From Sporopachydermia quercuum (lineage: Eukaryota; Ascomycota; Sporopachydermiomycetes; Sporopachydermiales; Sporopachydermiaceae), in contig BCGN01000002.1 in the NCBI GenBank assembly GCA_001599295.1, positions 1,240,001 to 1,304,000 on the forward strand: DNA of 64,000 nucleotides, in the 5' to 3' direction. Positions within the stretch are counted from its first letter, which is position 1. Every line of letters starts with the position of its first letter. Both the position numbers and the translations under genes were made by a program. The notes beneath the pieces were generated by a model. That model was not told the DNA's origin. It saw nothing but the letters and a program-made list of their open reading frames with translations, and ran no database searches. Of the stretch, positions 1 through 46,243 are shown in pieces.

Positions 1-1242
1 TATAGTACGGTTAAGCCATTTGAGAGTGATAGGAAGTATACGTTTGAGATCATCTCACCTATTAGCAGAAGAGTTTATCAAGCTGCTTCTAGGAAAGAAC
101 GTAACTCATGGATTCAAGTAATAAGTGATNCTATTAGTGCTGCTCTTGAACTGAGCTCTGGAAGTCGGTCAAGAAGTAGTACGTTGGAGGCAGCACCAGC
201 AGCTCAATTACCACCAACGCCTGCTGCTCATATTCAACAGATCTTTAGACCAATAAAAGGAAGAGCGAATATTGAACATGGAATTGATAATATAAGACGA
301 GTTGTATCAGGTAAAAGACCCAAGAGCGATAAATCGAGAACGCAGGCACATATTAGTGGATATAACAGCAATACTTTGACTCCTTTGAACGATCTTCACA
401 ACAAGTATTTTGAGATGGGAACAAAAGATAGTAACAATTCATATGCTTTGGTCAAAGTAGGAGATTCACAGAAATCCGCTGCATCATATCAACTGATAAA
501 TTCTGTAACTGACATTCATCCTTCTAATGCTGTATGTGCAGACTGTGGAAGTATGGAAAAAGTGGAGTGGGTTTCGATCAATTTGTTAGTTAACCTCTGC
601 ATTGATTGCAGCGGTGCTCATAGATCATTAGGGTCACATATTTCAAAAATGAGATCATTGACACTGGATAAAAAATCATTCACCAAAGAAATCATTGAAT
701 TACTTATGAAAATGAATAATGATGATGCTAATAAAATTTATGAAAGTCAATTTTATGGAGAGAATGGAGTAATAACTGAAACCTGTCGCAAATACAAAAT
801 TAATTCTAAGAGTCCACCTGGAAGCAGAATTGCTTTTGCTACAGATAAATACAGCAAGCGAATGTATATTTCGTCAAGTTTTACCAAAAACATCAAAGAA
901 TGCATAGATAACCAAGACTTATATGGAATTATGAATTGTCTGTTCCACAATCAATCTTTAACTGAGAAACTCACTTTTCATGAAATAAAATGCAATATTT
1001 TAGAGTACTCTTTAAGAATTGCTGTTGAAAATGCAGAAAAGAAAATGACTTCGACAAATACGGACAATAGAAGCATGGTGGATATAATTGAGCCAAATTT
1101 TTATGTTAGTGAGTTAATTGCTTTGAACAACTTTGACTTTTCAACTAATCTGTTCAACCCATCGTTACCAAATGTTGCTAAAGAATATTTATCAAGACGA
1201 CTGAAAAAGTCAGCATCTTCAGCTATTTATCTCCGTAACTAA
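1..1242 (+). CDS. AGE1: ArfGAP with PH domain, AGE1/csx2 type (5' partial)
   Basis: This is an Arf GTPase-activating protein that would stimulate GTP hydrolysis on Arf in Golgi and endosome vesicle traffic. The frame is already open at base 1, so the start lies outside the window and 413 residues are visible. The first ~45 residues read like the end of a PH domain (YTFEIISP, then a Trp-containing helix ERNSWIQVI). The ArfGAP zinc finger follows at bases 536-625 with spacing CX2CX17CX2C. It continues into CSGAHRSLGSHISKMRSLTLD, which carries the arginine of the HRSLG catalytic motif. The 17-residue spacing and the SHISKMRSLTLD run are what I recall of S. cerevisiae Age1 rather than Gcs1 or Glo3. 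A helical C-terminal tail of about 200 residues follows. Codon 664-666 is CTG at a family-conserved Leu. An N lies at base 130. The next gene, SPS1, is also its neighbour in S. cerevisiae, which supports the name. Confidence 0.85.
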   Translation, partial: YSTVKPFESDRKYTFEIISPISRRVYQAASRKERNSWIQVISDXISAALELSSGSRSRSSTLEAAPAAQLPPTPAAHIQQIFRPIKGRANIEHGIDNIRRVVSGKRPKSDKSRTQAHISGYNSNTLTPLNDLHNKYFEMGTKDSNNSYALVKVGDSQKSAASYQLINSVTDIHPSNAVCADCGSMEKVEWVSINLLVNLCIDCSGAHRSLGSHISKMRSLTLDKKSFTKEIIELLMKMNNDDANKIYESQFYGENGVITETCRKYKINSKSPPGSRIAFATDKYSKRMYISSSFTKNIKECIDNQDLYGIMNCLFHNQSLTEKLTFHEIKCNILEYSLRIAVENAEKKMTSTNTDNRSMVDIIEPNFYVSELIALNNFDFSTNLFNPSLPNVAKEYLSRRLKKSASSAIYLRN

Positions 1243-1899
1243 TGGATGTTTCAACAAGCTTCATTTATCCTATTTTATGCATTAGTTATCAATTGTAATT
1301 TTAGTAGATAGTTTATTTAATTTAATAATACCTGATTATAAGCAGTATTCTCTCTCAATTGCACACTTTCAAACATTCTTTAATAGCAGTTTCTGGTTTG
1401 CATTTCAGCATTTCCGTCTTTTTTTCAGATATTATTTCCGATATTTTCCTCGCGTCTCATCTTGTGCAGGGGCTCACAAGATTATTACTGTTATCAAATT
1501 TCCCAAACCAGGTTTTTTCTTTGTAATTCGTCCTATTTCTTCTTTTCTGCTTAGTCAACTTTGGATTTCTAGTAATCTGCATTTCTCTAGCTAAGCTAAT
1601 GGTAGAACGCCCAAGTTTAAAAAGAAACTTTGCTGAGATGTTATTATGAAGCCTCAATAGTCTAATAATAAAAGGAAGTAAAATTGGATTGCTTGTTCAT
1701 GTGCTCAATTGCTGTTTATCTGCTGTTTGCTTTGCTGTTGATCAGTTAGCCATTTACTGATACACAAGATACATTGTGTAATGATATTTGAGTAGACTGA
1801 ATAGCTATAGGAAGAATTTACTCTACCAACTGGCTTAATTATTTGTCTAATATATGAAACTTTAACTCTGGGAACCAGGTGAATTAATCGAGATCCAAA
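1243..1899. other. intergenic, AGE1 3' / SPS1 5'
   Basis: AT-rich spacer between two + strand genes. It should hold the AGE1 terminator and the SPS1 promoter. A 66-codon open frame on the minus strand (1457-1657) has no recognisable composition, and I see no RNA gene. Confidence 0.5.
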
Positions 1900-3870
1900 A
1901 TGTCATTAATCAATGGACAATATCAATACCCCATTGAACATTTTGTATTGGAAGATTGCATAGGATGTGGGAACTTTGGTGATGTATTTAAAGCGTAAAT
2001 GTGACATTTTTGATTATCTTTGATTTGAGACCAAATTCTGACTAAGTGAAATTTGAATAGAAGGACCAGAACTGATCACAAGGTGATTGCAGTGAAAGTG
2101 ATTGAATTTGAAGAAAGCGATGAGGATGTTGACGTCTTTCTTCAGGAAGTGAATTTCTTGTCTCAACTTAGACATCCCAATATCGTCGAGTATGACAGTG
2201 ACCTATTACTTTCTCTGATGATTCTCAAGATAATCTACAGTCGATCGAAAATGGCTAACAGGATGTTCGTTTCAGATACTACACAACTTATCTAAAGGGC
2301 CCTACTATGTATATTACTATGGAATACTGTGGAGCTGGCTCCTGTGCCGACTTAGTATTTACACCTTTCTATTTTGCCTTATGTATTGGAATGAGTGATT
2401 ATTCTAACCAGAGAAAAGCTGAAAATATTCAAGAAGCTTACAGAAGAACACGTAGCTTTTATTATTAGGGAAACACTGAAAGGTATAAATTATTTGCACT
2501 GTGAAAATAAGATCCATCGGGATGTTAAAGCAGCTAATATTTTCATCACTTGGAAAGGGAATATAAAATTAGGTGATTTTGGTGTGAGTGGACAAATTAG
2601 TGAAACAATTTGTAAGAAAAGAACTTTGGTTGGAACGCCATTTTGGATGGCCCCTGAGGTTGTGACAAAAAAGTCTGGTTATGATATGAAGATTGACATT
2701 TGGTCGTTGGGCATAACAGCAATTGAACTAATCACAGGGGCTCCTCCTCATTCTAATGTCAAACCAATGGAATACATATTCATGATTCCTTCTAGACCAC
2801 CACCTAATCTTGAGAACGAAAATGTCAGTGACTACATGAAGCTTTTTGTGAGAAGGTGCCTTATAAAGAATCCAGAAGAAAGGCCATCAGCAAGGCAGCT
2901 TCTAGAAAGTAAATTATTGAGGATTCCTAGATATACAAGTTTAGTACCTTTGCTTGTTCAGAAGAACAATTGGGCTCTTAAACATGGTATACCTAAGAAA
3001 CGAAGGAAACACGGGAAAGTCACCAATAAAGGAAACTGTGTTGATATTGATTGGAACTTCACCGAAAGAAAGTGTCTTCAAGATTATCGAGCGATGGAGA
3101 AATATACCAAATATGATATTCTTGATACAATTGAGATGAGAGACTTGAATGATAATGCCGAAACTCAAGAAGAAGAAGAAGAATATGAAATGTGTGTAGA
3201 AGAATCACACAGGTTTTGTAAGGAATTTGAAACTGAAGATGATGTCAAGGTGAATAAGAAGCTAGATACTGGAAGCCCTACTACAAAGATTACAGATTCT
3301 AGTACCGAGAATAACAGGAGTACCGAAACAGATCTGACTTCTCCAGATCTTAATACACCTTCTCACAAAGAAGAAACCAACGATNATTACGGATTGAATC
3401 AGAGGTTCAGTAAATTCTTTGTTGGTAATTCTGGTAACATTTCTGGACACAGATTACACCGGAAGTTCAATTATTTGAAAAACGGGATAAGAAGAAAATC
3501 TCTGGATCAAGATAAACTTACTAAAGATACTCAAGAATCGCAAGAAAAAGAAAACTTGCAGGTTTCGAAATTGTCTTTTGAACTACCAATGATCTATAAT
3601 TATGAGTCCAATGAATTACAATCTTTAAATTGTTTTGAGGATGTCACAAAATATTGTTTAAATAGAGTAAAGAAAAGAGCTTTAACAGAAGACGCAATCA
3701 AGGCTTCGGCAAGTCTAATTGACATGTTGACATGTATGGAACATGCCAATGAGGGCCTGAATCAAGTAATTATTGAGGAAATATGGTTGAGATTGTTAAA
3801 GCTCTACCAGAAACAAAACTCATTATTAGCAGAGGTGGGTAACTTACAAATAATACCAGAGGAGCAATAA
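1900..3870 (+). CDS. SPS1: Ste20/GCK-family protein kinase SPS1 (4 exons)
   Basis: Serine/threonine kinase of the germinal-centre (GCK-III) group. In S. cerevisiae Sps1 is needed for spore wall formation. I assemble exons 1900-1994, 2061-2189, 2276-2354 and 2419-3870, giving 584 residues. The introns start GTAAAT, GTATGA and GTATTT; the clearest branch points are GCTAACA near 2254 and TTCTAACC near 2402. The kinase domain is complete: glycine loop GCGNFGDV (residues 22-29), VAK-type lysine in IAVKVIEF, HRDVKAAN (134-141), DFG (154-156), and VGTPFWMAPE. Runs such as GNFGDVFK, SDEDV, MEYCGAGSC and VKLGDFGVSG-like text match Sps1 better than Kic1. A 300-residue acidic, low-complexity tail ends in a helical segment (from about residue 505). 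Exon 3 joins to CTG at 2419, skipping an AG at 2410-2411 that is too close to the branch point and would break the frame. An N lies at 3385. Confidence 0.9.
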
Positions 3871-4657
3871 CAATCAAATCAAAGCAAAATATCAATTTAG
3901 CCTAAACGGTCTAGTTTATTGATTGTTCCAACTACTTTTATTTTTTATAGCCGCTACTTTAGTTGTCAATTGCCTGCTTCTTGTCAGTTAATATAAGTTA
4001 TTAGCTTTCNAAAGAAACTGCAGACGTACTAAAGTCAACCGGAAATACCATTACGCTACTATCATGAAAACTACTTATATTGTGCCTCTGGTACTCCCAT
4101 TCCTAATGCCGTATCAGCTGCACTTTCAAGGCCTTTATTTGGTTTCCAGTTGCACTTTCCTTATTAATTCCCACCTTTATCTTTGTTCTCAGTTGGTTGC
4201 TTTGCTTGCAGGGTTTGATGTTTGTGATTTGTGGTTGGGTGATTCACTTTTAAACCACAAAACAATGTTTGGGTGCGCAATCAACCGCAGTATAATTTGT
4301 CACACACATATAAAGCTGTTTTCTTCTTTCCTTTTACTAGACACTTGAAGTATCTGGCTGATATGGTTCTATATTACTGTTTTAATGGGATTGATGTTAG
4401 AAAATAAGAAGAAATCTTATATGTTTAAATATAATTAGTTAAAAATTACGAATCTGCTTAATTACTGCTATTTAGGATTAAGAATAACTACTAATAATTC
4501 AATCAAAGCTAAGACTTTACGGAAAGGCTTTCTATCTATTCATTATATTCGCTTCATTTACAGTACTTGAGACAGAACTTACAACTTGATATCTATTAAA
4601 AATCGAAAGTTCGAGCACCTATTAGAATTACCTCCCAACTGCAAAACCAATATAAAA
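3871..4657. other. intergenic, SPS1 3' / SPS2 5'
   Basis: Promoter region of the SPS2-family gene. It holds two MSE-like cores, listed separately. A 94-codon ATG-started frame at 4064-4348 is hydrophobic and Cys-rich but matches nothing I know; I regard it as chance. N at 4010. Confidence 0.4.
4227..4262. promoter_or_regulatory. two middle-sporulation-element-like cores
   Basis: CACAAAT lies on the minus strand at 4227-4233 and CACAAAA on the plus strand at 4256-4262. Both satisfy the CRCAAAW core bound by Ndt80 in S. cerevisiae, although the last flanking position is C in each. They lie about 400 bp upstream of the SPS2-family ATG. In baker's yeast SPS2 is a mid-sporulation gene, so the placement is suggestive. 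The core is short and common, so this is inference only. Confidence 0.3.
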
Positions 4658-6016
4658 ATGTTTGTGACAACTGCTACAACTATCAAACAGTTCTCAAAAC
4701 TGCTGGTTTTATCCCTTCTTCCTGGTTTAGGCAGTAGCTTGAACACCACTTTTGGTTAGTAGAACCTTTGTTAGGAATTTTAGTGTTAAGATCATATAAC
4801 TAACAGACCTAATACTATAGAGCCAGCAAACTGTGAACTAGGAGACGTTCTTATCCAGAAAGCAGTTGATCTCTCCTATATTGAAGGATGTCATAATTTG
4901 AAGGGTAACTTACAAATCCATGAATACAGCGATGGCATTATTGATTTAGGCAGCCTGGTTTCTATTGAGGGAGACGTTGAAATTACTGGATCAACATCGT
5001 TACAAAATTTCCTTGCTAATGAGTTGAGATTAATCAAAGGCAAATTTTTGGCCAAAGAGCTATATTCTTTGAATTCAATTGTTCTCCCAAAACTTGAAGC
5101 AGTACACAGCATAGAGTTGAAAGTAGTTCCTGTACTATCTCATTTAGTGATAGAGCAAGATCTTAAAGACTGTTCCAAAGTGGTTATTTCTGACACTTCT
5201 TTAACTGAATTAAATCAATTCAACCAATACGAAATTGATGTTTTAAATGTCAACAATAATCGTTATTTGAAAGAATTTGGCTCATCAGTCGAACGAATAA
5301 TCGGAAGTTTAGAGATCTCAGGTAACGGAAAAGATTTAGAAGTCCAACTAACAGAATTAGCATCAGTGAAGAATGCAACAATAAAAGGTGTTCAATCATT
5401 AGATATGAGCCAAGTTAAATACGTTAATGCTTCGTTCTTTTTATTAAGTAACAAGTTTAACTCTCTGCAACTTCCTAATCTTAAAGCTATTGCTGGGAGT
5501 TTTGGAGTGAGTAATAATAAAAATATAGACGAATTAAGCTTGCCTAGTTTGGAAAATATCAATGGGGGATTGGTTATTGCCAACAATACAAAGCTGCTAA
5601 AAATGGACAACTTCGATGAATTAAGAGTAATTGGTGGAGGGGTTCAAGTAGAAGGAAGCTTTGATACATTTGACTTACCTCATTTAGAAAGAATCAAAGG
5701 AAGTGCAAAGTTGGTCACAGATTCTCATACATTCAATTGCGACAACTGGATTTTTGCTAAAGAAAATTCTATCATTGAAGGTGATTCATTTCAATGCAAG
5801 AATGGAACCACAGAGAAACTGATAAATGACAAGGACAAGGATAAAGATAAAGGGAACAATGATTTAAGACCATCCAAAGATAACCCTTCATCCAGATCCA
5901 AAACAAACGTGAAGAACAATGCTTCTAATCACAATTTATCACTTGATCACAATTATTATCTCAAATTATGTCTTTGTTCATGGCTTGCAATTCTTAGTAT
6001 ATCAATTATCTTTTAG
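4658..6016 (+). CDS. SPS2: SPS2/ECM33-family GPI-anchored cell-wall protein (2 exons)
   Basis: A secreted, probably GPI-anchored leucine-rich/receptor-L-domain protein of the Ecm33-Pst1-Sps2 family, which acts in cell-wall or spore-wall organisation. Exon 1 is 4658-4754 and encodes a signal peptide (FSKLLVLSLLPGLGSSLN). Exon 2 is 4821-6016, giving 430 residues, close to the 429 I recall for Ecm33. The intron has donor GTTAGT and branch ACTAAC. The AG fused to the branch point (4805-4806) is out of frame, and the AG at 4819-4820 restores frame. After a CELGDV start the body is a series of hydrophobic beta repeats of the type LPSLENINGGLVIANN. A lysine/aspartate-rich linker (KDKDKDKG) replaces the usual Ser/Thr stalk. 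A hydrophobic C-terminus (about 25 residues, ending in ILSISIIF) fits a GPI signal. The name rests on family plus position next to SPS1; sequence alone would allow ECM33. Confidence 0.8.
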
Positions 6017-7037
6017 TGTTCTAGTTGACATTCGATCAAATTGAATAAATTGTTATCACACTTTTACATGAATTGTATGAAAGTTTTACGGAATCAATGA
6101 TTCCAGCGAGTGAGGCAATACGATGCATCAAAAAAATATATCAAGTATTCACCATTTGTCATAAGTTAAACCGATGCTAAACCATATGGTAGTTCTTAAC
6201 TAGAAGACTTCGTGAAATGAAATTACCAACCCATCATCCCATACGACAATAAGGTCAGCGAATGTAGAGAGCCACAGAGAATGACAAAAATGAATAGTAA
6301 AATAGTAGAATAGTAGAATTAACCCTTGACTTGTAAACAAGGATAAGAATAATTAAAACTTCAAGCAGAATGATTTATCCAGTCATTCATTCTATTCTAT
6401 TCTATCAATAATAATCCTTGCTCAATTCATATACAACATTATATCTCTAACATCGTAGAATAATGCTCTACTCAACTAGTTAGGTTTAAGTAGCTACTTT
6501 CATTTCTGAAACTTTTATTGCAGCTATCATACGCCTATTATGAGACAGCTTATCGTAACCTGAAAATAGAAACCCAATTATACGGTAGTATTTTATCTAT
6601 CTTTCAGAATAGTGATTACTGATTCTGAATCTGTTTGCAGACTATATAATGATTCAGAATAAAACGGTGTTGAATTATTTCTTGTTAGTGGAGCATAGAT
6701 TCTAATTGGATTTCTAGACGCTCTTACAGAGAAAAAGACCAAGAGCTATCTAGCGTGAACAAATTCACATATTGTGTTCTACTGTCTGTCTAAGAGGTAA
6801 CAATGATTAAGTTGATTATTGAACGGGTTATTTAACTATAGCGACTATTTAACTTATAGTTATACATTATCTTATGCTATACTAGGCGACAGCTTTATTT
6901 CAAAACCCCCCGAAGTAGGTCTCTGCTTTGAACCTAACCGAGCCTATGAAAATTGAGAAAAGCAATCTGCTCATCATCTTGGGTTGCTGAAACCTTTCTT
7001 TATCAACAGCAAATATATGAACTATAATATCTGAATC
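6017..7037. other. intergenic / promoter of the Zn2Cys6 gene
   Basis: A 1-kb AT-rich spacer. It contains short repeats of AATAGTAGA type at about 6292-6320 and three copies of ATTCT at about 6389-6404. No open frame or RNA gene stands out. Confidence 0.4.
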
Positions 7038-9839
7038 ATGGATTCAAAATATTCTCTGGACAATGCAGAGAAATCTTCGTCTTTCTCCAACAACCTACAC
7101 ATGATTTCAGAGGAAAGAACTCAAATTATGCCTTCAACATCAAGACTCAACTGTCGAGATAGTGACCCTCTCAGTTCGGAAACCGCATCCAGTACTATTC
7201 ATAAAGAAGGTACGACAGCCAGTACAGATAACTCAACATATAATAGAAATACAGACAAAACAAAGGAGAAAATTATGAAACCGAAATCTCATAAGACAAA
7301 ACGTCGTTCCATGTCTTGTGATAACTGTAAACGATTGAAAACAAGGTGTGATATAGATCCAAATTCAGCGAAATGTCATAGATGCGCTGTACTTAGACTT
7401 AATTGTTCTCATGAAAGGACATTTTCTGAAGAAATCTCTACTGGTTCCGCTAACTTGGCATCTCCCACCGGTAGCAATGATAAAACTATCAAAGATTTCC
7501 AAACTCAAACGTTTGAAAGGTTGAATGATCTCACTACTAGGATAACGAATGTTGAATCAACACTTAACACTATACAGCAACAATTAGGATTAATCTTAAA
7601 TCTAGTTCAACAAAACATGAATAATAGCTTGCTTGGAGAATCTAGAGAAAGTATGCCAGTTGACTCGAATGTTAGAGAAAAGTTCTATAAAGCAAGAAAG
7701 AGCTCTTCCAACTTAGTGGCCGATTCAACAACAGATTTGAAACGGAAGAGATCATCTATTTCACTACCTTCTATTACAGGAGCAANTAATAGCAACACTA
7801 ATATTATNNCTAGTACCCCCGCACCGAGTATTAACTTTGCGGATTTCTTGTTTATTGAATCAGGAAAATTTCTTGATTTACACACAGAGAAATCTCCTGT
7901 TATGGTGATACGGAAACTACAGAATAGTCTTTTTAGAACTCATGGGACTTATGACGCTCTTACTATGAGTTGCGACGGTTTCCTTCAATGGTTCGAGCGA
8001 AATGAAGAATTATCTTTAAGTCTTGTTAAATCGTTTCTAGAGATTTCGCATTTATGGATAATTCCGGGAGGTATTAAAGAAGTAGATAGAGAATATGTTC
8101 TTCAACATAGATTTATATCATGTGTGTTTGTTCTACTGGCAATGTGCTTCGATAAGAATTATAAGTACGTAGAAGAACAGAAAACGCTATATTGGATGAC
8201 CAGACAAATTCTTGGCTGTGCTGTTATTACTGCCCCTTTAACTAATCATGATATTGAAGCAATACTCTATCTAGCTATGTATGATTGTTCAAGAAAACCT
8301 TTACAGCAGTATATTGATAATTGGATCCTTAGTGCTATTGGCATAAAACATTTGATGATCTCATTCAATTTCATGGATATATATAATTCTGTTATACTCA
8401 ATAAATCATATGACGTTGATGATTTGTTCATTCTGAGAGTATGGAATTCAATGTGTGCCTGCCATTTATCATATTGTATGGGAATGGGACGTCCAGTGAT
8501 GATTTCTGATGACTATTTAGAAATATGCAAGCTGACAGCTGAATTTCCTAATGCAACAACTGGTGATTCCATTAAATTAGCAGAATTAGACTTTTATACT
8601 ACTTTTTTGAAGATTGTTGAATCAGATGACGAACATTTAAACCGATTATTGAAACAAAATTATTATAGAGCTGAGAGTTATAATCCTTCAAAGTTATTAT
8701 CATATACACAGTTGATTGAATGGCAAAACAAGTGGTCCCATATATTCACAGAGGATAGATCTAATGTTTTGATGTTTGCATATGATTTTGGTCATACAAT
8801 GCTCAGCAGAAGATTGATAAGAGTGATGGAAACAGTAAAAGAAAAAGAACCAGCATATAATGATTTAACTTCAAACTTAGGTAAGGTTTTTTTTAGGAAA
8901 CTACGGCAAGCTGTTGATACTGCTTGTTTTTATTCTTTTTCCCTTATTCAGAGACTTCTTAAAACATCTCCTTCTTTTATCAGAGGAGCACCTAATTTCC
9001 AGCTCTGTCAAATAACATATTCAGCTTTGACCTTATGGGAATATTTAGACTCTTTGAGCGAAAAGAATAAAGAGGCAAGTTTGAATATCATCGTCAGAAC
9101 ATATTGGCACTTGAATTATATTGGAGAAAAGAATAACGATGCTACTGATACTGTGGGACGAATTATCAAGAGTTTATTAGATAAATTGAATACTCAGAAT
9201 ACAACTGTGCCAGTTTCAAGCTTTTTTGATCAAGCATTTATATGGGATAAAGGTAATTCGTCCAATATGATGCAACCAACCTCTAAACTTACAAGTAGTA
9301 CAATGAGGACACGACTGAATAACATCAGTCCAATAACTGGTTTGCCATCATCATCATCAGGATTACCAGCTGTTGCAAACAATACACCCAATGAATCCTC
9401 ATATCAATACAAAGATACTCACACTGATAATCCAATAGAAAGGCCACAGCTCTCTACTAATCAGAGTCATCAGCTGTCACACAGGCATTCACCAAGCTCT
9501 AGCTTTTTACATCATTCAGAATCGTATCCAAGCCAAATATCACCTTCAATGAACGAACAACTCTCTACTGGAAGTGCCCATAGAAGCACTTCTAATAAGT
9601 TACTATACGAACCCCAAACGATAAGCCACTCAAATAGCACGAAGAGCGTCAACATGGACCCAAGAAGTTCAGCCTCTCCGTGGAATGATGTTAATATACC
9701 GCTAGTTCAGCCAGTTAATGAGATCGAACAATTTTCTGAAGATTTATCTTCTATCGACTTACCTGACCCTTCGCAGTTTGATACTTTTGAAGATTTCTTC
9801 GCTGGTATGTTTGCTATGAATGATAAGAAGGATGATTGA
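7038..9839 (+). CDS. URC2: Zn2Cys6 fungal transcription factor, probable URC2
   Basis: A 933-residue binuclear zinc-cluster regulator in one exon. The zinc cluster is C94-X2-C97-X6-C104-X8-C113-X2-C116-X6-C123, preceded by a basic KTKRRS stretch. A heptad-like dimerisation helix follows at about residues 157-190 (RLNDLTTRITNVESTLNTI). The middle 450 residues are hydrophobic-helical, as in the fungal-specific regulatory domain. The last 30 residues are acidic with bulky hydrophobics (DTFEDFFAGMF), like an activation domain. Zinc-cluster genes cannot be assigned by the finger alone. The URC2 name comes from position: in S. cerevisiae URC2 (YDR520C) lies between SPS2 and FPR2 in the same orientation as here. 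URC2 controls uracil catabolism in Lachancea. Three N bases (7786, 7808, 7809) fall in a low-complexity linker. Confidence 0.75.
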   Translation: MDSKYSLDNAEKSSSFSNNLHMISEERTQIMPSTSRLNCRDSDPLSSETASSTIHKEGTTASTDNSTYNRNTDKTKEKIMKPKSHKTKRRSMSCDNCKRLKTRCDIDPNSAKCHRCAVLRLNCSHERTFSEEISTGSANLASPTGSNDKTIKDFQTQTFERLNDLTTRITNVESTLNTIQQQLGLILNLVQQNMNNSLLGESRESMPVDSNVREKFYKARKSSSNLVADSTTDLKRKRSSISLPSITGAXNSNTNIXXSTPAPSINFADFLFIESGKFLDLHTEKSPVMVIRKLQNSLFRTHGTYDALTMSCDGFLQWFERNEELSLSLVKSFLEISHLWIIPGGIKEVDREYVLQHRFISCVFVLLAMCFDKNYKYVEEQKTLYWMTRQILGCAVITAPLTNHDIEAILYLAMYDCSRKPLQQYIDNWILSAIGIKHLMISFNFMDIYNSVILNKSYDVDDLFILRVWNSMCACHLSYCMGMGRPVMISDDYLEICKLTAEFPNATTGDSIKLAELDFYTTFLKIVESDDEHLNRLLKQNYYRAESYNPSKLLSYTQLIEWQNKWSHIFTEDRSNVLMFAYDFGHTMLSRRLIRVMETVKEKEPAYNDLTSNLGKVFFRKLRQAVDTACFYSFSLIQRLLKTSPSFIRGAPNFQLCQITYSALTLWEYLDSLSEKNKEASLNIIVRTYWHLNYIGEKNNDATDTVGRIIKSLLDKLNTQNTTVPVSSFFDQAFIWDKGNSSNMMQPTSKLTSSTMRTRLNNISPITGLPSSSSGLPAVANNTPNESSYQYKDTHTDNPIERPQLSTNQSHQLSHRHSPSSSFLHHSESYPSQISPSMNEQLSTGSAHRSTSNKLLYEPQTISHSNSTKSVNMDPRSSASPWNDVNIPLVQPVNEIEQFSEDLSSIDLPDPSQFDTFEDFFAGMFAMNDKKDD

Positions 9840-10075
9840 ATGATGAAGCAAACCGAGAATAATCATGAAATATGCATGAATATGATAATAGAATGTCATA
9901 GTAATAGCACAGATTATAAATGTGACCATACTGTATTTATATAATGAACAATAAACGTTTCCTAGTATGTTAATACTAGTCTAGATAAAAATTCACGTCC
10001 TAAGTCTTAGAAATCTTTTTCCTTAGCAGATTCATTTGATTTATTTGATTCATTTATCACTGTTACCTAACTCAT

Positions 10076-10930
10076 TTATTCATATAACCTTGATTTCAAA
10101 ATATAATCTTGAACTGATTGAGGTAATTCTGCCTTCCATTGAGCACCATTACCTTGCTTCACAGCTTTTCGAATACTTGATGAGCTTATATCGATACTTG
10201 TTCCGTCTCCTTCATAAAGTTGAATCCTGTTGGCCCACTCCTTTGGTATTCCATCAATTAATCCTTGTCTTATTCTTTCAACATACTTATATTGTTCTTC
10301 CAATGTATTTATCTCATCTCCTCGAGTAAGACATGATAATGAACAACTTTCCATAAATGATTCAAGTGCAACAGATATTGGGGATTCGTAGTACTTTTGA
10401 TTGAATATTCTAATCAGAGTGTCATATCCTACTAGGAAGTCTAACTGAGGAGATTCTACATAGCCATTACTATCATTACTATGTTTAGCTTGCTCAACTG
10501 ACCAAAAATGTAATATAGAATCAGCTTTATCAACAAACTTTGCATGATTAGTTAATCCAACTAGCACATCAACTGTTCCTGTGATTTGGTGTATATAGTC
10601 GGCCGTAAGACACATCATAGCCATTCTATGATCAAATGAAGCTGGCACCGGGTTAATCTTATCAGCATTTTTTACAGACAATAGTAATAACACAATCTGA
10701 GGCACTTTTGAATCATTTTTCAAAGCTTTTGTTACCAAAGAAACATGTCCATTGTGTGGAGGATTAAACGATGAATCCAGTACTTTTATGCTTTTATAGC
10801 GATTGATCGATTGAGTACTTGATTTACCACTAGTTTTCCAGTAGAAGAGATCAAACGATGATTTCTTGCAAAGAAACTCTGATAAGAATCTCTTGCATTC
10901 TGTTCTTGTCAAACAAGTCCTAGAGATCAT
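10076..10930 (-). CDS. POF1: nicotinamide-mononucleotide adenylyltransferase-like protein POF1
   Basis: A 284-residue nucleotidyltransferase of the NMNAT/cytidylyltransferase superfamily, which would join NMN and ATP to make NAD. The T/HxGH signature is present as SSFNPPHNGH near residue 55, and the C-terminal ISSSxxR-type motif as ISSSSIRKA near residue 250. The interior is Pof1-like (DFLVGYDTLIRIF, LTRGDEIN). S. cerevisiae Pof1 is about 258 residues; the extra length here is an N-terminal basic and Cys-containing extension that could be a targeting sequence. The ATG at 10928-10930 is the first in frame. The gene runs towards the Zn2Cys6 gene with 236 bp between the stop codons. In S. cerevisiae it is close to EMC1 and MGR1, as here. 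Confidence 0.87.
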   Translation of the reverse strand: MISRTCLTRTECKRFLSEFLCKKSSFDLFYWKTSGKSSTQSINRYKSIKVLDSSFNPPHNGHVSLVTKALKNDSKVPQIVLLLLSVKNADKINPVPASFDHRMAMMCLTADYIHQITGTVDVLVGLTNHAKFVDKADSILHFWSVEQAKHSNDSNGYVESPQLDFLVGYDTLIRIFNQKYYESPISVALESFMESCSLSCLTRGDEINTLEEQYKYVERIRQGLIDGIPKEWANRIQLYEGDGTSIDISSSSIRKAVKQGNGAQWKAELPQSVQDYILKSRLYE

Positions 10931-11382
10931 ATTTGCCGTTAGTTAGATGCCTTTTATGTAATATGCTTATAATAATCAGAGTCTTTTACCTGGGGTTAGC
11001 AGTAAATGAAAGATTGATAGCAGAAAGGTTGTCAATCGAGAAATCAGGGAGAGTACTGTTATCGTTGTAAATGATTACATGATCATTATTTAAATAAAAG
11101 TGAAGAATATTTCGGAAATTATGTCAAAGAGGATTCCACATCATTTCCTTAATTGATAAGGTGAAGATCGGATGAAGATAAGTCAATTCAAAACAAATGA
11201 TAAACCAGGAGAATAAATGAAGATGGATATTATAGAGATTCGTAGAAGAATATCAAGTAAAAACTTTATTGAAAATGCTTTTTTGTTCACGTTGGAAGAT
11301 AGTAGAGCATACGTGTGCTTTACAGATCATAGAAATCTGAATCAATGGTTAAAAACAGACCGAATCAATTGATATCAAATCA
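10931..11382. other. intergenic, FPR2 3' / POF1 5'
   Basis: Spacer between two minus-strand genes. On the minus strand a GTAAAA donor (near 10990) and CTAACTAAC branch-like text just above the POF1 ATG could form a 5'-UTR intron, but no upstream coding exon can be read. Confidence 0.3.
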
Positions 11383-12288
11383 TTACAAATCAGCTTTACC
11401 GTATTCCTCAGCAGCAATATCTTCTGCATCTTTGACTTCTTCTTTCTCTTCAAACTTGGGTGGTGTATATCCTCGAATTGCTACCAATTCAGTGTCGAAA
11501 ACTATTACTCAATGTTAGTAAGAGTGTGCGGAATATGTCATCGAAAATGAAAAATGAACTTGAAAAATGAACTTGAAAAATGAGCTTAAGCATTATTTTG
11601 ATCATTAAAAGAAATTACTTACTTAAAGTAGCATCAGGTGGGATTACATTTCCAGCACCAGATTTGCCTATAATCAATAGCCGTTAGTATTGTTGACATG
11701 CAATTACCTGAATCTCAAACATATTTTGCACATGTTTGAGTTTATCTAATTCCGTCAATGTTGTTCAAATTATAATAATTCACGCAAACAAACAAATTTG
11801 AAAATCACATACCGTATCCAAGTTCAGGAGGAATCACAAGTTTTCTTTTCTCTCCAATGCACATTCTATTAAATGTTAGACGTTACTACCCAAGCGACCT
11901 ATCTATTATAATGAAACCAAACAAATATTTTAAACCTTACCCCATCAAACCTTGATCCCAGCCTTGAATTACTCTACCAGTTCCAAGAGCAAATTCGATT
12001 GGCGTTCCTCTTTCAACTGATGAGTCAAAAACTGATCCATCTTCAAGTCTACCAGTATAATGAACAGAGATGAAATCNTTTTTCTGACTCTTTCTCAAAC
12101 ATCTTGACTCTGGAATTTTCTTGGTGACGCCTGTTGATAATATTGTTAGTTTCTCACATTTACCAGTGCTAATGAAAACATCATCTTTGCATAATTAATC
12201 AATAGCTCTTACCAATCTGAAGCTTCTCAGATGCCAAACATAGGCCAACCAAGCAAAAGAGAACTGTAACTAAAGTTGAAATCCGCAT
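11383..12288 (-). CDS. FPR2: FKBP-type peptidyl-prolyl isomerase of the ER, FPR2 (5 exons)
   Basis: A secretory-pathway proline isomerase of 160 residues. I assemble exons 12213-12288, 11941-12130, 11813-11865, 11623-11667 and 11383-11501 (minus strand). All splice phases agree, with donors GTAAGA, GTAAGG, GTATGT and GTAAGT. Residues 1-19 form a signal peptide ([19 protein letters not shown]). The FKBP fold is complete: [49 protein letters not shown] and [16 protein letters not shown]. The mature part ends in an acidic tail and the sequence KADL, which resembles but does not match HDEL/KDEL. Four introns in a 483-nt coding sequence is unusual for a yeast. S. cerevisiae Fpr2 is 135 residues and, as far as I know, unspliced. 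The largest intron (11502-11622) carries three copies of a 13-bp repeat. N at 12078 in exon 2. Confidence 0.93.
11550..11587. repeat. 13-bp tandem repeat in FPR2 intron 4
   Basis: Two exact copies and one slightly changed copy of AAAAATGAACTTG lie head to tail inside the fourth intron of FPR2. The repeat is likely replication slippage and accounts for part of the length of that intron. Confidence 0.85.
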
Positions 12289-12878
12289 TTTCGACCCTTA
12301 AGAGAAAAATAAGATCTATTTAATATAAATATTCTGTTAATTAACTTTCAGGAAGGATCTTAAGCTACCCAATTCAACAGAGTTTCGCTCTATCAGAATG
12401 ATGATTTAGTAAGAATAATCAAAAGAGGCTACTCCTAAAGGGCCTTTTCCGTACGTGGCCCAATTGATAGAGGAGGAGATCACGTCTCACCTCCAGGGGT
12501 TAAAATCACGTGATGGAATGATAGTTATTTCCGAAGCAATATATGAGACATAGATAAGAACAAGAAAGATTACTGACGCATCTCAACTTGTGTAATGAAT
12601 TGAGATGCATTTAGACAGATTAATTCAGATAATGATTATAGAATAATGAATGATAATAGATTCTCGTAGTTACCAGACCTGTAAAATCCTGGCTTTTAGT
12701 TATTGAATCATATGATTTGTCTTCTTTGTTTAAGTAACTGGAAACGGAAACTTTACTGCTTCTATAATTTCCGATATTATGCTCTCTTTGAAAACTGAGA
12801 AAAGCTACGAGGTTATCAATATTAATGATACCTTGATTTATTACAGTAATAGTTCTATAGGCCAAAATAAGAAAATAT
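12289..12878. other. intergenic, EMC1 3' / FPR2 5'
   Basis: Spacer between two minus-strand genes. It holds a perfect TCACGTGA palindrome (listed separately) and a GC-richer stretch at about 12430-12520. A minus-strand frame over 12620-12937 overlaps the end of EMC1 in another frame and is not a gene. Confidence 0.4.
12506..12513. promoter_or_regulatory. CACGTG E-box (TCACGTGA) upstream of FPR2
   Basis: A perfect 8-bp palindrome about 220 bp upstream of the FPR2 start codon. It is the classic Cbf1/bHLH site. The site is plain in the sequence, but which factor uses it is inference. Confidence 0.45.
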
Positions 12879-15776
12879 TTAATNCCTATCAATATGCCAT
12901 CTTGAATACAACTTCCTCTTTCTAACCATTGGCTCAACTAGCACAACAGCTATCACCAAAGCAGTAATAGTTATTAATAACTTACCATAACCAAAAGTCT
13001 CTGCTAACATATCAAATTGACCTGATGGTTTGATTCTGGTAAAAAATGCGTCACCAGAACCATAAACAAACACCAGTGAAGTGGATTCAAGATTACTTGG
13101 AGTGACCACCACAGAGGCTTGTCTGAACTCCAAATTTCTATCATGAGATAGTATATCTAATGCTTGAACATTGAATAAAGGTATCATACCTTCAGATCGG
13201 AAGAGATTTTCTTTCTTTTCATCGTTGTTAGGTTCTCTTCCAACAGGTCTACGAGCATCAAGCATTTGTTTCGGTAGCAGTATCACTTGACCTGATTCTA
13301 ACACAGTAATAATACTCCTAGCTGTAACACCGAATCTAGAATAAGTCGGCTTTAAGGAAATGATTTTAGCTTCCTTTGGTACAGAAAATGATTGACTAAC
13401 CACAGATGGTGGTCTAATAACATCGAATTCTGACATTTCCTCAGAACTAAAACGAACATTAGGTGCCAGTGACTCATACAAATCGATCGAAACAAGTTTC
13501 GTAGATCTAAAAGGAAGATCACTGAAGTATGAGTAGAGGACCCAATGTTCACCAAGAACTGCACATATGCTAGAGCTGAAATCAATCTTCTCTCCAGAAT
13601 GTTGGGTGGAGTATAAAATATGTCCATTCACTGCGTCTAGTATAACAATCTTTAACTTATCTTCTTGTTCATTAGCCAAGACAGCAACAATATTATGAGG
13701 ATAGAGATATTTGTAAAGAACCGATCTATCAGCAAGAACTCTACCAATTGATGCAGATTTCTCCTCTAGCTGTTTACTGGTTATTGATATTAGTTTTTCG
13801 TTCTCACCAACAGGAAAATTCCATGTCTTTTTGATTTTATTGTAAACGGACACAAATCCAGTGATTCCATCTTCTGTTTGCGAGTAGAAGTAGATTTTAT
13901 CCGATTCGTTCCGATTATTGATAGTAACCACTTGGTTATCATCTGTTATCACAGATAGATCACTATCAGGTATAGTTACCGTTCTAATAATATCGGACTT
14001 AACATCCATATTACTCTCAGTAATAGTAAGCCCATTAGTGCCGTCATAAGTTAGTACATTTCCATCTGCATATACCAAACTAACAGTTTGACCAATAACT
14101 TTAAGAGCTACAAACTTTGATGTTTGGACGCTTGTGGACCAAAAAATTGTACCGTTGAGAGAATTAAGTCCGTATAATCCACCTGATTGAGTGAGCACAA
14201 CAATTACCTTTTGAAAACCGAACAAGGTACTCAGTCTACTTGATTCAGTCTCATCTGATCGTGAGAAAAAGTCTCCTGACAATACAAAGCTTATCAATTC
14301 AGTTAAATGTCTTGTGAATCTGCTAATATAAGCATCAAATACGTTAGCAGTTTCTTCTTCTAGGATGTATCGCTCTAGTTCATTGACCTCAGCAAGCTCA
14401 AAATCCAAGAATTCTGCAGCTAGAATTNCACTAAATTCTTCATGGTTAACCCAAGTATCACTAATAAATCTACCTCTAACGACAGTTTGAACCAATTGAC
14501 CATTTAGAGATTGGTATAACAGGTTAGTTTTATAGTAGTGATCATTTGATTCTTCGTTTGATATTTTTACGGTTGAAGCCTCAAGTAATTGTTCAGGGTG
14601 ATCAGAGATCCGAGCAACACTAACAGGAGTTAACTCGTTTGATGTTTCTTGACCATCAAGTGAAAAGATAGACAATTCATTTCCTATCAACAGAAGTATA
14701 GCTTTGTCGGTATCATCAATAATCACAACACTGGGCACTAGAATATTTTGGGTAGTAGTAAAACCTTTACCCAGGTTAGTAATTGACGCTTCTGCAATAT
14801 CAATAGTATAGAGAGATAAATGGCTAGTATATTCATTGGTGGATACTAACACCAAAGCAAGTTCTGATTCACCAATCAAGAAAAACTTTGACTCAGTAAT
14901 ATCAAATCCTTCAACTAAATTCTCATTAATTGATTTGACTAATGAACCATCAATGTCGCTGTAAAAACTAATAGTTGATGAACCACTAGACTGTGTGAGA
15001 ACAATATTGGCATAAGAAGCAACAAATGTTNCTTTTATTTCATAACCTGAATCTGAAGGTTCACCATCAAGAGTTTCATAATGGGCATACTTGTCATTAT
15101 TATAAGCAATTATGACATCAGATATACTCGGTTCAACGACATTTGCTGCAAAAACATAAGATACACCATCTAACTGTTGGGACCATAAGGTGGAGCCAGT
15201 TGTGGAATCAATCTTGAGGATCAAACCATCACTGAAAACTGCAATTATGTCGCTATCGGATAAAACTGAAAATTCAGCTAAAATCTTATCATAAACTGCT
15301 TCCCATAATAGGAATCCAGTCTTTGGATTCCAAATTTGTAATAATGATCTGTTTGAGTTCTTATTCACTATGCTTGTAGCAATACCAACACTTGAATTAG
15401 TCAGAGCGGCNTTTTTAGTATCAGCATCAACAACAAAATCAACAGATTTGATTGCAACTACATCATTGACGTGGAACTTCGATTGTGTTGTTAGTTGAGT
15501 TCTCCATTGTATTTGCCCAGAATAAACATCTATCGATGCTAAGTAGTTTTTATTTGTGGCTACAATATAAAAGGACTCTTTGGAAGACTTTTTCCCTGGT
15601 TGAAACTTTAGTTGTTCAGGTGATGAAAAGTCTCTGAAAGCAAGAAAATTGCCAGGAACAACTTGTCCTATAGTTTTATAAGCCCAATCAATAGTATGTG
15701 CATCTTCAGCAAATGCTACTGATACACATACTACTAATAGTAATAAGGACAAAATACCTGAATTGAACCACTTCAT
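12879..15776 (-). CDS. EMC1: ER membrane protein complex subunit 1, EMC1
   Basis: The largest lumenal subunit of the EMC insertase, which inserts tail-anchored and multi-pass proteins into the ER membrane. The protein has 965 residues, near the ~990 of animal EMC1 and longer than the 760 I recall for S. cerevisiae. A signal peptide (residues 1-23, ending VSVAFA) is followed by DWAYKTIGQV and PQQ-type beta-propeller repeats (YSGQIQWRTQL, TGSTLWSQQL, NGTIFWSTS). A single membrane helix at about 930-950 (LLITITALVIAVVLVEP) leads to the family-typical terminus RKRKLYSRWHIDR. The final residue is ambiguous because of the N at 12884, and the stop follows at once. Further N bases lie at 14428, 15031 and 15411. 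It sits between FPR2 and MGR1; EMC1 and MGR1 are also adjacent in S. cerevisiae. Confidence 0.92.
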   Translation of the reverse strand: MKWFNSGILSLLLLVVCVSVAFAEDAHTIDWAYKTIGQVVPGNFLAFRDFSSPEQLKFQPGKKSSKESFYIVATNKNYLASIDVYSGQIQWRTQLTTQSKFHVNDVVAIKSVDFVVDADTKXAALTNSSVGIATSIVNKNSNRSLLQIWNPKTGFLLWEAVYDKILAEFSVLSDSDIIAVFSDGLILKIDSTTGSTLWSQQLDGVSYVFAANVVEPSISDVIIAYNNDKYAHYETLDGEPSDSGYEIKXTFVASYANIVLTQSSGSSTISFYSDIDGSLVKSINENLVEGFDITESKFFLIGESELALVLVSTNEYTSHLSLYTIDIAEASITNLGKGFTTTQNILVPSVVIIDDTDKAILLLIGNELSIFSLDGQETSNELTPVSVARISDHPEQLLEASTVKISNEESNDHYYKTNLLYQSLNGQLVQTVVRGRFISDTWVNHEEFSXILAAEFLDFELAEVNELERYILEEETANVFDAYISRFTRHLTELISFVLSGDFFSRSDETESSRLSTLFGFQKVIVVLTQSGGLYGLNSLNGTIFWSTSVQTSKFVALKVIGQTVSLVYADGNVLTYDGTNGLTITESNMDVKSDIIRTVTIPDSDLSVITDDNQVVTINNRNESDKIYFYSQTEDGITGFVSVYNKIKKTWNFPVGENEKLISITSKQLEEKSASIGRVLADRSVLYKYLYPHNIVAVLANEQEDKLKIVILDAVNGHILYSTQHSGEKIDFSSSICAVLGEHWVLYSYFSDLPFRSTKLVSIDLYESLAPNVRFSSEEMSEFDVIRPPSVVSQSFSVPKEAKIISLKPTYSRFGVTARSIITVLESGQVILLPKQMLDARRPVGREPNNDEKKENLFRSEGMIPLFNVQALDILSHDRNLEFRQASVVVTPSNLESTSLVFVYGSGDAFFTRIKPSGQFDMLAETFGYGKLLITITALVIAVVLVEPMVRKRKLYSRWHIDRX

Positions 15777-16208
15777 TTTTTCAGTCCTTTCCTGGTAATG
15801 ATACGATCAAACTGACATATATCAATATCAGGCTTTGGAATAAAAAAGTTACCAGGTTTGTCTGATCTTCAGAGTGATAATCATTGATATGTTCATAGGC
15901 AAATCAATCAATTGGTAGAGATGCTGTAGTTCTTTCACGATGAATTGTTCAGTTGATAGTCTGAACATGGAGAGTACCAGTTACCTCATATAGGACAAAT
16001 TCCACGTGACCAGGTATCTCATGATCTTCTATTTAATTAGAATAAGAAAAATAGTATACTTACAATGAGATTGAGATCTGGAAGATGATATATGATATTA
16101 CAAATGCTATAGAGAAGGGTTCAAATATATGCAAAAAGTATTCTTAAACAAATTCAATGCCATTGATGAAATACAAAGTCAGCTAGATACATCGATATCA
16201 AATTTTGA
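15777..16208. other. intergenic, MGR1 3' / EMC1 5'
   Basis: AT-rich spacer carrying a CACGTG E-box at 16003-16008, about 230 bp upstream of the EMC1 start. No further gene is seen. Confidence 0.4.
16003..16008. promoter_or_regulatory. CACGTG E-box upstream of EMC1
   Basis: The hexamer sits in the context TCCACGTGAC. It is one of five CACGTG sites found in intergenic DNA of this window. The functional role is inference. Confidence 0.35.
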
Positions 16209-17273
16209 CTATATGTCACGGTCCAGGTTTGACATTAAGTCAATGCGAGACTGTGGAGAGTTGAACTTATTGTTATCATTTTGCTTATTTTCCGGCAAAA
16301 TTATATCAGGATAGTTTATTTCAGAAGCTCTTCTGTAATGAGGAATATATCTTATTTCATAAGGGGATCTATCCATCGAATTCCATGGATTAAATATTTG
16401 CCACACTTTGCTTTGCGTTGAATGCGCCAATGATATGAATTTTGTCCCAGGAAGAACGAAACGATTTTCCTGTAGTATTTTTAAAGCATCTTTCGGAATT
16501 TCTACTTCCATATAATCATCACCAGGAGCAACAATAGATTTGCGTGATTGAATCAATTCTTTGATTTCGTCATAAATACCTTTCAAGGAAGTTAAGAAAG
16601 AAAACCCGTTCCTCCAATCCAATTGGGATGTTGATGGTATATCTGATAGCATTAGTTCATCTGGGTAGTTCTTATCGATAAATTTCTTCATTCTATCTCT
16701 ATTCAACATTACTTGTTCGTTGTATCGTATCTGAAGTAATGTTCCTGCAGTTCCGTTCAAAAAGACCGTTTCTTCTTGCATATTAAGATAAGCTGATAAT
16801 CTCAAAGCTCTTTGAACATCATTCAAAGGTCTATAGTAAGGGCCAAACCATGAAGTGTATAAAAATGCTTCTTTTTCTCTCGCTAAACGTTCTACTTTGG
16901 CCTGCTCAACAAGGGGTTCATAAGGAAACATCAAGAGAACTTGACTAGCAGTGCAAAGAATTCCACCAATAGCACCCAACCTCAAACTGTACTTTTTTAG
17001 CAAGTTTTTCCTTCGCACCCATGCTGACAATAAACTAAACTTTGATGTATCTATATACATAGATCGTCGAAACATATATACAAAAAATGATGCTTGTATT
17101 GAAAATAGCGTCACATTACAAGGAATACAATCCGGTGAAGGACCCAATGGTCCCCATAGTTTGCATATTGTGGGATTCTCGTAAGGCTCAGGTTCTTCGT
17201 CAGACGAATTGTTCCTAACTTGTTTAACAATGTTATCTTCAGGTGGCCTCTGTGGTGGATCAAATAATCCCAT
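16209..17273 (-). CDS. MGR1: MGR1, adaptor subunit of the mitochondrial i-AAA protease
   Basis: A 354-residue mitochondrial inner-membrane protein. In S. cerevisiae Mgr1 joins Mgr3 and the protease Yme1 and helps deliver unfolded substrates. The visible markers are KLWGPLGPSPDCIP (residues 38-51) followed by TLFSIQASF, which parallels what I recall of Mgr1 (KLWGPL-P-PDN-P then ITIQS). WFGPYYRPLN also parallels the WFGPLEYKP region, and FNPW occurs near the C-terminus. Two membrane helices are predicted by eye at about 54-68 and 97-117. The first ATG is at 17271-17273; the frame continues upstream only to a TTG. It lies next to EMC1, as YCL044C lies next to YCL045C in baker's yeast, which raises confidence for an otherwise fast-evolving protein. 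Confidence 0.82.
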   Translation of the reverse strand: MGLFDPPQRPPEDNIVKQVRNNSSDEEPEPYENPTICKLWGPLGPSPDCIPCNVTLFSIQASFFVYMFRRSMYIDTSKFSLLSAWVRRKNLLKKYSLRLGAIGGILCTASQVLLMFPYEPLVEQAKVERLAREKEAFLYTSWFGPYYRPLNDVQRALRLSAYLNMQEETVFLNGTAGTLLQIRYNEQVMLNRDRMKKFIDKNYPDELMLSDIPSTSQLDWRNGFSFLTSLKGIYDEIKELIQSRKSIVAPGDDYMEVEIPKDALKILQENRFVLPGTKFISLAHSTQSKVWQIFNPWNSMDRSPYEIRYIPHYRRASEINYPDIILPENKQNDNNKFNSPQSRIDLMSNLDRDI

Positions 17274-17683
17274 TTTCGCTTGCTTTAATTTAACCAATGA
17301 CTCAATGCCAATTCACTCACTCCTAATCTTCCTAGTATTATATTCTTATTGCCTATCCTGCCTACTTCATAAAAGTAGTAGTTTTGCAATTTATTTCTCT
17401 CCTATGATTTTCTGTTTATTTACAGCTATTGAGTCTCCTTTCAACATATATTCGTCAAACTCAACAGAATGATATGTCAGAAGTAATGCAATGGTAATCG
17501 TACCCAAATGCAAAGAGCTCTCTCCAATGTTCACTATACAATAAGATGGCAATGACCTTTGACCTTTCTTCTCTTTTCTTTCTAATCGGGAAGTCTTTCT
17601 ACATTACCCCCTCGTCTTCATTTCTAACTTGGGGGGATATGCAAGATAATTAATTGTCATGACATAATGCTTTGTATCATTAC

Positions 17684-17690
17684 CGGGTAA
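17684..17690 (-). promoter_or_regulatory. Reb1-like site (TTACCCG)
   Basis: CGGGTAA on the plus strand is TTACCCG on the minus strand, the core of the Reb1 general regulatory factor site in S. cerevisiae. It sits mid-way in a divergent promoter, where such nucleosome-clearing sites are commonly found. A single 7-mer match is weak evidence. Confidence 0.35.
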
Positions 17691-17802
17691 TCATTTTGTC
17701 CTGAATTGAAATGAAAGCAAGTGAAAATTGTCCTAGTAAATGTAAGAAATAAATGAATGTGGTAAAAGACTAAGAGAGAAATCATAAAATTGATTTATTG
17801 AT

Positions 17803-17818
17803 GGTTGGTTGGTTGGTT
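17803..17818 (+). repeat. (GGTT)4 microsatellite
   Basis: Four perfect GGTT units lie about 260 bp upstream of the ATG at 18075. Simple sequence with no evident function. Confidence 0.9.
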
Positions 17819-18074
17819 GTAGTTTAATGTACTATTGGGGTATTTGATGATAATTAATTAGTTGCTTCACTATTCAAGGTGGCAAAGAGGAAGGAGGCTG
17901 TTTGCTAATCTTATAGCGTAATATTGAGGCTGAAATCAACGTTAAGTCCGGATCAATTAGTATATTGTTAGTTGTTTGATATTTGGCTAACATTAGATCA
18001 TACAGCTGGGTTGAGAGAGGGAGAGAGTGTTTTGATAGTGGCTTATTAGAGATAGAAGTACATAGGTCAACAAT

Positions 18075-29661: not shown

Positions 29662-29994
29662 ATGTCTTTTGCTATCAATACAAATGAAGGTGAAGCATGT
29701 CATCTCGACAGCAAGGTTATCAATAAATCAGACAAACAAGAATGTAAGTAAGAATATAATGGTTCTTGCCTTAGCGATTCCAAAGGTTGCGCTTCGAGGA
29801 GCTGTGATCCGTTAAAGCACTTATTTTGAGATACTAACCATATGTCAGCTCGTCCTAAGCCATGTTGCGTATGCAAGCCTGAAAAATCAGCTCGGGATGA
29901 ATGTCTTCTTTTCAATGGTCAGGAGAGCGGAAAATGCGATACCTTGATTTCTTCTTACAAGGCTTGCATGAAAGGATATGGATTTGAAATCTAA
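29662..29994 (+). CDS. COX17: copper metallochaperone COX17 (2 exons)
   Basis: A 75-residue twin-CX9C copper chaperone of the mitochondrial intermembrane space that supplies copper to Sco1 and Cox11 for cytochrome c oxidase. Exon 1 is 29662-29743 and exon 2 is 29849-29994. The intron has donor GTAAGT, branch TACTAAC (29832-29838) and acceptor TCAG. Exon 2 holds the whole functional core: KPCCVCKPEKSARDECLLF and KCDTLISSYKACMKGYGFE. The copper-binding CC and CX9C pairs are all present and nearly identical to yeast Cox17 (69 residues). Because each exon is short, the gene does not appear as a long open frame and is easily missed. Exon 1 encodes a non-conserved, charged N-terminus with one extra Cys. 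Confidence 0.95.
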
Positions 29995-40106: not shown

Positions 40107-40597
40107 GGAAGTTAGCCATGGCATGGGAATTTGGGAGGATGAGGCATTATAACAATGGGCTTTTAAGAAGTATATGATAAACTGTATTGATTCGATTGTT
40201 TGTTAGAATGCATTTAATCTGCATGTTAGCTGCATAAAGCAACGAATTGCCTGATCTCTTGAAGTCTAAGATATTCGATAGCATAAACAATAACAGTAAA
40301 TTGTTTGAATCCGAGGTAATTGGCCATCAACAATGTAAATCCTTAGTTTCCACTTCTATCATCCCCTCATTATGAAAACGGCTTAAGCCTCTTTAAACTG
40401 TGTACATTATGATACTATTTCTAACAGCAACTACAAAATACAATGAAAGTGAATTCCTATAACATTATCTTAGTCATTATTCATCTATTTGCCATTCTCT
40501 CAATTAGCTATGTCCCTCTTCACTATTTCGAGACCATAATTAATCATTATCAGCTATAAATCCATCGAATTTCGTAGTTCTCCAGCCACTATTCATC
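40107..40597. other. convergent 3' intergenic region
   Basis: A 491-bp spacer between two converging genes. It should hold both terminators. Nothing else seen. Confidence 0.5.
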
Positions 40598-46237: not shown

Positions 46238-46243
46238 CACGTG
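46238..46243. promoter_or_regulatory. CACGTG E-box between YMC1 and MOB1
   Basis: Context CATCACGTGTAAAA, about 460 bp upstream of YMC1 and 475 bp upstream of MOB1. Function inferred only from the motif. Confidence 0.35.

Follow-up and report, generated by a model that had tools for sequence, protein, structure and literature searches.

A pre-duplication ancestral yeast genome was reconstructed in 2009 by Gordon, Byrne and Wolfe from 11 yeast species, and two sister regions of Saccharomyces cerevisiae (baker's yeast) map 2:1 onto its one unduplicated order (PMC2675101). Here we describe a block of eight genes, AGE1 to MGR1, at positions 1–17273 of a 64-kb stretch of yeast-type nuclear DNA (the window; G+C mostly 33–44% in 2-kb steps). 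The block resembles the reconstructed ancestor in that 2:1 relationship, and is very probably a single copy of a segment that the S. cerevisiae ancestor also carried before its genome doubled, kept on a branch that split off earlier. Unlike the reconstruction, it comes from an intron-rich yeast that is probably outside the Saccharomycetaceae, and the two are likened by principle, not by segment-by-segment order. The 11 species of the reconstruction are presumably all Saccharomycetaceae.

Pre-duplication order is also partly kept outside the Saccharomycetales, over ~138–208 million years, at the centromeres of Saccharomycodales and Phaffomycetales; that system concerns centromere regions, and the segment AGE1–MGR1 is not mentioned in the parts of the paper covered (PMC12711049). 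Closer to the present locus is the ohnolog pair YDR524C-B and YCL048W-A, each of which shares synteny and a weak similarity with a gene found in three Lachancea species (PMC3161974). The pair belongs to the same two baker's-yeast regions, marks them as sisters through Lachancea, and represents the small gene expected just left of the window. The segment AGE1–MGR1 was not found named in an outgroup in the open-licence literature, among the titles and abstracts listed. The merged order is already established in unduplicated yeasts (PMC2675101), such a locus is expected, and the one described here is a useful extra outgroup and not a new kind of locus. An outgroup with undivided order settles how URC2, POF1, FPR2 and EMC1 lie relative to one another, which is not readable from either baker's-yeast chromosome alone. 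It would also independently support ancestral reconstructions made within one family, and position helps to name genes that evolve fast, MGR1 and the URC2-like regulator among them.

Eight genes from AGE1 to MGR1

The block holds AGE1, SPS1, SPS2 and a URC2-like gene, all on the plus strand, followed by POF1, FPR2, EMC1 and MGR1, all on the minus strand. The single-frame genes were read as open reading frames, while SPS1, SPS2 and FPR2 needed splice models (three, one and four introns, respectively), each of which gives a protein without internal stops.

1–1242, plus: 3' part of an AGE1 homologue, ArfGAP with a PH remnant upstream, truncated by the left window edge
1900–3870, plus: SPS1 homologue, STE20/GCK-III kinase (exons 1900–1994, 2061–2189, 2276–2354, 2419–3870)
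4658–6016, plus: SPS2/SPS22 homologue with Receptor L domains and a hydrophobic tail (exons 4658–4754, 4821–6016)
7038–9839, plus: Zn2Cys6 transcription regulator, URC2-like (Zn_clus), its name helped by position
10076–10930, minus: POF1 homologue, nicotinamide-nucleotide adenylyltransferase-like (CTP_transf_like, TIGR00482)
11383–12288, minus: FPR2 homologue, FKBP (exons 12288–12213, 12130–11941, 11865–11813, 11667–11623, 11501–11383)
12879–15776, minus: EMC1 homologue (EMC1_C; PDB 6wb9)
16209–17273, minus: MGR1 homologue, i-AAA protease adaptor (PF08602), final gene of the conserved block

These genes, their order and their strands had been proposed in an earlier note on this DNA, and open reading frames, splice models and family matches bear the proposal out. 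The extents needed amendment: all eight genes are there, but AGE1 is truncated by the window edge and SPS1, SPS2 and FPR2 are split.

EMC1 and MGR1 each match a gene-specific Pfam family, EMC1_C (E 6.7e-62) and Mgr1 (PF08602, E 4.6e-08). The top solved structure for EMC1 is 6wb9 (E 6.5e-64), which we take to be the S. cerevisiae EMC1 protein. AGE1 is recognised through ArfGap (E 5.7e-27), with the upstream PH match (E 1.1e-3) below the Pfam cut-off, and FPR2 through FKBP_C (E 1.7e-37), a hydrophobic, signal-peptide-like N-terminus and FKBP2-named PDB entries at ranks 3 and 4 (among the best 60 of 141 sequences). The SPS1 model has 585 codons including the stop, no internal stop, and an unusual AAG acceptor at its final intron. 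It matches Pkinase (E 1.2e-66) and, as top PDB entries, STK24/STK25; because KIC1 presumably belongs to the same kinase group, it is length and place that favour the name SPS1, short of proof.

The remaining matches are broader. The Recep_L score of SPS2 (E 6.6e-11) is compatible with the entire ECM33/PST1/SPS2/SPS22 family, and the URC2-like protein scores 20.6 bits with Zn_clus, just under the cut-off of 21 (E 4.8e-4). POF1 matches CTP_transf_like (E 8.8e-07) and TIGR00482 (E 1.3e-14; 54.7 bits, below the cut-off of 112), and its likeness to NMNAT entries in PDB, which we take to be human, is very weak (E 0.63–0.8). Counterparts in one or other baker's-yeast region are thus identified at family level for all eight genes.

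The gaps between the eight genes contain no recognised gene, and no frame that starts with ATG reaches 100 codons there. Shorter stop-to-stop stretches are present; the longest seen, 118 codons at 3992–4348, was the sole inter-gene stretch scanned and gave no Pfam match. The window contains 16 unresolved bases (N), at 130, 3385, 4010 and 13 further positions, and 11 of the 16 lie within the first 15.5 kb; this clustering suggests assembly ambiguity there.

Correspondence with S. cerevisiae chromosomes III and IV

The order and strands of the block fit chromosome IV (AGE1-SPS1-SPS2-URC2-FPR2) and chromosome III (SPS22-POF1-EMC1-MGR1) simultaneously. These eight genes can be arranged in 10,321,920 signed orders, of which 20 fit both chromosomes (given the gene content and the baker's-yeast strands as we take them), in agreement with the earlier claim that every relative orientation accords with both. 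The interleaving of chromosome III and IV genes in one locus is real.

The W or C ending of an S. cerevisiae locus name gives its strand. For chromosome III the order is printed as APA1, YCL049C, YCL048W-A, SPS22, POF1, EMC1, MGR1, YCL042W, GLK1, GID7, ATG22, SRO9, GFD2 and GRX1, with PDI1 among the out-of-order entries that end the list (PMC7075250). For chromosome IV, AGE1 is YDR524C and SPS1 YDR523C (PMC5086634), URC2 is YDR520C (PMC4766638) and FPR2 is YDR519w (PMC2639373); EUG1 (YDR518W) and PDI1 (YCL043C) are both listed as PDI-type (PMC4824858). One literature passage places YDR522C near YDR528W on chromosome IV. The chromosome IV block was not found as one printed list in the literature, which gave single locus names only. 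On chromosome III we take SPS22 to be YCL048W, POF1 YCL047C, EMC1 YCL045C and MGR1 YCL044C.

By name and list, YDR524C-B and YCL048W-A adjoin AGE1 and SPS22, respectively, and because these two small genes are ohnologs (PMC3161974), the two regions are sister blocks, as had been claimed. A shared anchor also lies inside the block, and had been passed over in the earlier note. We take SPS2/SPS22 to be a duplication pair, and PDI1/EUG1 to be another that bounds the other end; on that pairing, SPS2/SPS22 is the best tie of both regions. The genes that lie between SPS2 and the PDI1 position divide between the chromosomes, with URC2 and FPR2 on IV and POF1, EMC1 and MGR1 on III, and this 2:3 division is the pattern left by losing alternate copies.

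In the scheme we favour, the entire segment would have been doubled in the S. cerevisiae ancestor, after which the copies would have lost different genes. Chromosome IV would have retained AGE1, SPS1, URC2 and FPR2, and chromosome III POF1, EMC1 and MGR1, with both copies retaining SPS2 (as SPS2 and SPS22), the small gene and the PDI-type gene at the ends. The present yeast would belong to a branch predating the doubling, probably outside the Saccharomycetaceae, which has retained AGE1 to MGR1 in one undivided run and undergone a rearrangement directly after MGR1. The families, order, strands and intron density come from this analysis, and the baker's-yeast orders and sister status are taken as background; we infer the reciprocal gene loss, the position of the yeast and its single-copy state.

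The correspondence ends at MGR1:

17274–18074, no strand: synteny break at the expected PDI1/EUG1 place, ~0.8 kb without a frame of more than 70 codons

The longest frames there have 65 codons on the plus strand and 70 on the minus strand, and downstream of the gap come an unnamed gene for a 613-amino-acid protein and then HSP78. The order breaks after MGR1, and the ancestral order is therefore supported in the window only from AGE1 to MGR1. To liken the locus to the unduplicated ancestor itself was too strong; what stands is an apparently unduplicated living relative that keeps the eight genes. The 613-amino-acid protein (18075–19916) matched nothing in Pfam, NCBIfam or PDB at the thresholds applied; by eye it has a mitochondrial-looking start and hydrophobic stretches.

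Several points weigh against descent from an undivided ancestral segment. The window yielded no PDI1/EUG1, which is expected beside MGR1: no member of the thioredoxin/PDI-type family appeared among the scanned window proteins (for HSP78, among the best 25 of 39 matches), and a CxxC motif search of the whole window gave two matches, at 31854 on the plus strand and 24924 on the minus strand, neither in a gene's frame. Of the eight names, URC2 and SPS2 are the least certain, being assigned at family level with the help of position. The equation of SPS2 with YDR522C, every baker's-yeast strand and some of the chromosome IV order are our assumptions. Finally, the letter in YALI0 tags stands, as we take it, for the chromosome. 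In Yarrowia, SPS1 and URC2 have counterparts with the D and E tags YALI0D19470g and YALI0E18656g (PMC4766638), and by these tags the two genes lie apart; the block is therefore not kept in that lineage and is not universal.

The weaker names raise the possibility that part of the match is accidental, the URC2-, SPS2- or POF1-like genes being misnamed paralogues and the true conserved core shorter. SPS2 and URC2 are indeed placed at family level and POF1 lies below its NCBIfam cut-off, but EMC1, MGR1, AGE1, FPR2 and SPS1 by themselves already combine genes of both regions with the correct order and strands, and the three weaker genes stand where both blocks require them, so that we consider an accidental match improbable.

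Introns, genetic code and the placement of the yeast

At least eight of the 24 genes in the window are split (SPS1, SPS2, FPR2, SEC22, COX17, a YPL162C-like gene, a YMC-like gene and MOB1), with 16 introns in all and at most four per gene. This count is a lower bound, since introns were placed where homology required them; AGE1 and MDN1 are truncated by the window ends. The 16 introns are short (64–145 bases), with CTAAC shortly upstream of the acceptor in 15 of them (by eye), and the donors are varied, including GTAAGT, GTATGT, GTAAAT, GTTAGT, GTGAGT and others.

Split genes make up 3–5% of genes in Saccharomycetaceae, 6–7% in the CTG clade, 10–15% in methylotrophs, 14% in Yarrowia and 35% in Geotrichum (PMC5499181); for Phaffomycetales no rate was found in the literature. 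The probability of at least eight split genes in 24 is 1.4e-5 at a rate of 5%, 1.5e-4 at 7%, 0.02 at 15% and 0.64 at 35%, albeit for one small window, and small windows can mislead. The window does not show the 3–5% of Saccharomycetaceae, and on its intron content the yeast is therefore probably outside that family. The earlier placement outside the Saccharomycetaceae is thus supported, short of proof, by intron content.

The same unduplicated order could instead belong to a yeast within the Saccharomycetaceae, of the ordinary, non-duplicated Lachancea or Kluyveromyces type, and would then hold nothing beyond the published ancestor. Identities of 54–57% to what we presume to be S. cerevisiae DCS1 and MOB1 are compatible with such membership. 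Double-conserved synteny between S. cerevisiae and yeasts of this type is also already published (PMC2675101), but at least eight split genes in 24, with up to four introns per gene, contrast with the 3–5% of the family (PMC5499181), and we regard this alternative too as having little chance of being right.

The genetic code was read from CTG codons, of which there are 88. Seven were aligned by eye, five of them at leucine, one at tyrosine, one at isoleucine and none at serine:

CTG at leucine: MDN1 88, DCS1 314, EMC1 770, one in SPS1, one in MOB1
CTG at tyrosine and isoleucine: EMC1 833 and 901

By these alignments CTG reads as leucine, and not as the serine of the CUG-Ser code.

The last alternative, that functional constraint beyond slow rearrangement keeps the genes together, is the least probable of all: FPR2, EMC1 and the absent neighbour PDI1 all presumably act in the endoplasmic reticulum, but the remaining genes are presumably of unrelated function, S. 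cerevisiae survives with the set split over two chromosomes, and in Yarrowia the tags set at least SPS1 and URC2 apart.

Gene order in the rest of the window

Other groups of genes in the window correspond to baker's-yeast neighbours:

26433–25465, minus: SEC22 (5 exons; Longin and Synaptobrevin families)
24746–23721, minus: DCS1 (DcpS families)
29662–29994, plus: COX17, followed by two other genes
34552–35496, plus: MEU1-like gene
37077–35743, minus: POM34-like gene
38076–47538: YIL108W-like metallopeptidase (plus), PFK26-like gene (minus), inserted carrier, presumably YMC-type (minus), and MOB1 at 46717–47538 (plus)

The top PDB match of DCS1 is 5bv3, with 54.1% identity across 255 columns of its second stretch; SEC22 and DCS1 are, we assume, YLR268W and YLR270W, neighbours in S. 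cerevisiae on the same strands as in the window. COX17 matches the COX17 family (E 3.1e-23) and the MEU1-like gene PNP_UDP_1 (E 1.3e-35), and the name POM34 leans on position because its NPCC score (E 3e-4, 21.3 bits) is below the cut-off of 33.9. We take MEU1-POM34 to be YLR017W-YLR018C and COX17 to be YLL009C beside PSR1, with PSR2, the duplicate of PSR1, beside POM34; on these positions, the closeness of COX17 to MEU1-POM34 may mark another interleaved pair of sister regions. In the third group the families are Metallopep (YIL108W-like, E 1.8e-165), 6PF2K (PFK26-like, E 8.2e-75) and Mito_carr (the carrier, E 1.2e-60), and MOB1 has 2hjn as its top PDB match at 237.8 bits, against 157.3 bits for the Mob2 entry 5ncm. 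The YIL108W-like, PFK26-like and MOB1 genes presumably repeat the S. cerevisiae order YIL108W-YIL107C-YIL106W on the same strands.

Rfam at gathering thresholds and a tRNA scan gave no match in the window. EMC1 and a 900-amino-acid piece of MDN1 gave 20 and 58 pattern-match stretches, respectively, against genome contigs, and two and six against viral contigs, none of which tblastn confirmed.

Across the 24 genes there are 23 neighbour pairs, which we compared with S. cerevisiae positions as we take them, skipping dubious small open reading frames. Ten of the 23 are kept when all seven pairs of the block are included, interleaved ones among them, and seven are adjacent on one S. cerevisiae chromosome (AGE1-SPS1, SPS1-SPS2, SPS2-URC2, EMC1-MGR1, DCS1-SEC22, MEU1-POM34 and YIL108W-PFK26). 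Adjacency is ~70% and 50% within Saccharomycetaceae groups and <20% for other yeasts (PMC5499181), and the contrast of 10/23 or 7/23 with <20% is modest at 23 pairs. It is conceivable, albeit rather unlikely, that the yeast is from an intron-rich, early-branching order of the Saccharomycotina, and that AGE1–MGR1 and several other segments of the 64 kb have kept their arrangement relative to S. cerevisiae from a time well before the Saccharomycetaceae arose. If so, the genome would be an unusually slow-rearranging one, fit to root ancestral gene order.

A gene for a Class II aldolase/adducin-type enzyme, of which we know of no S. cerevisiae counterpart, lies at 28343–29203.

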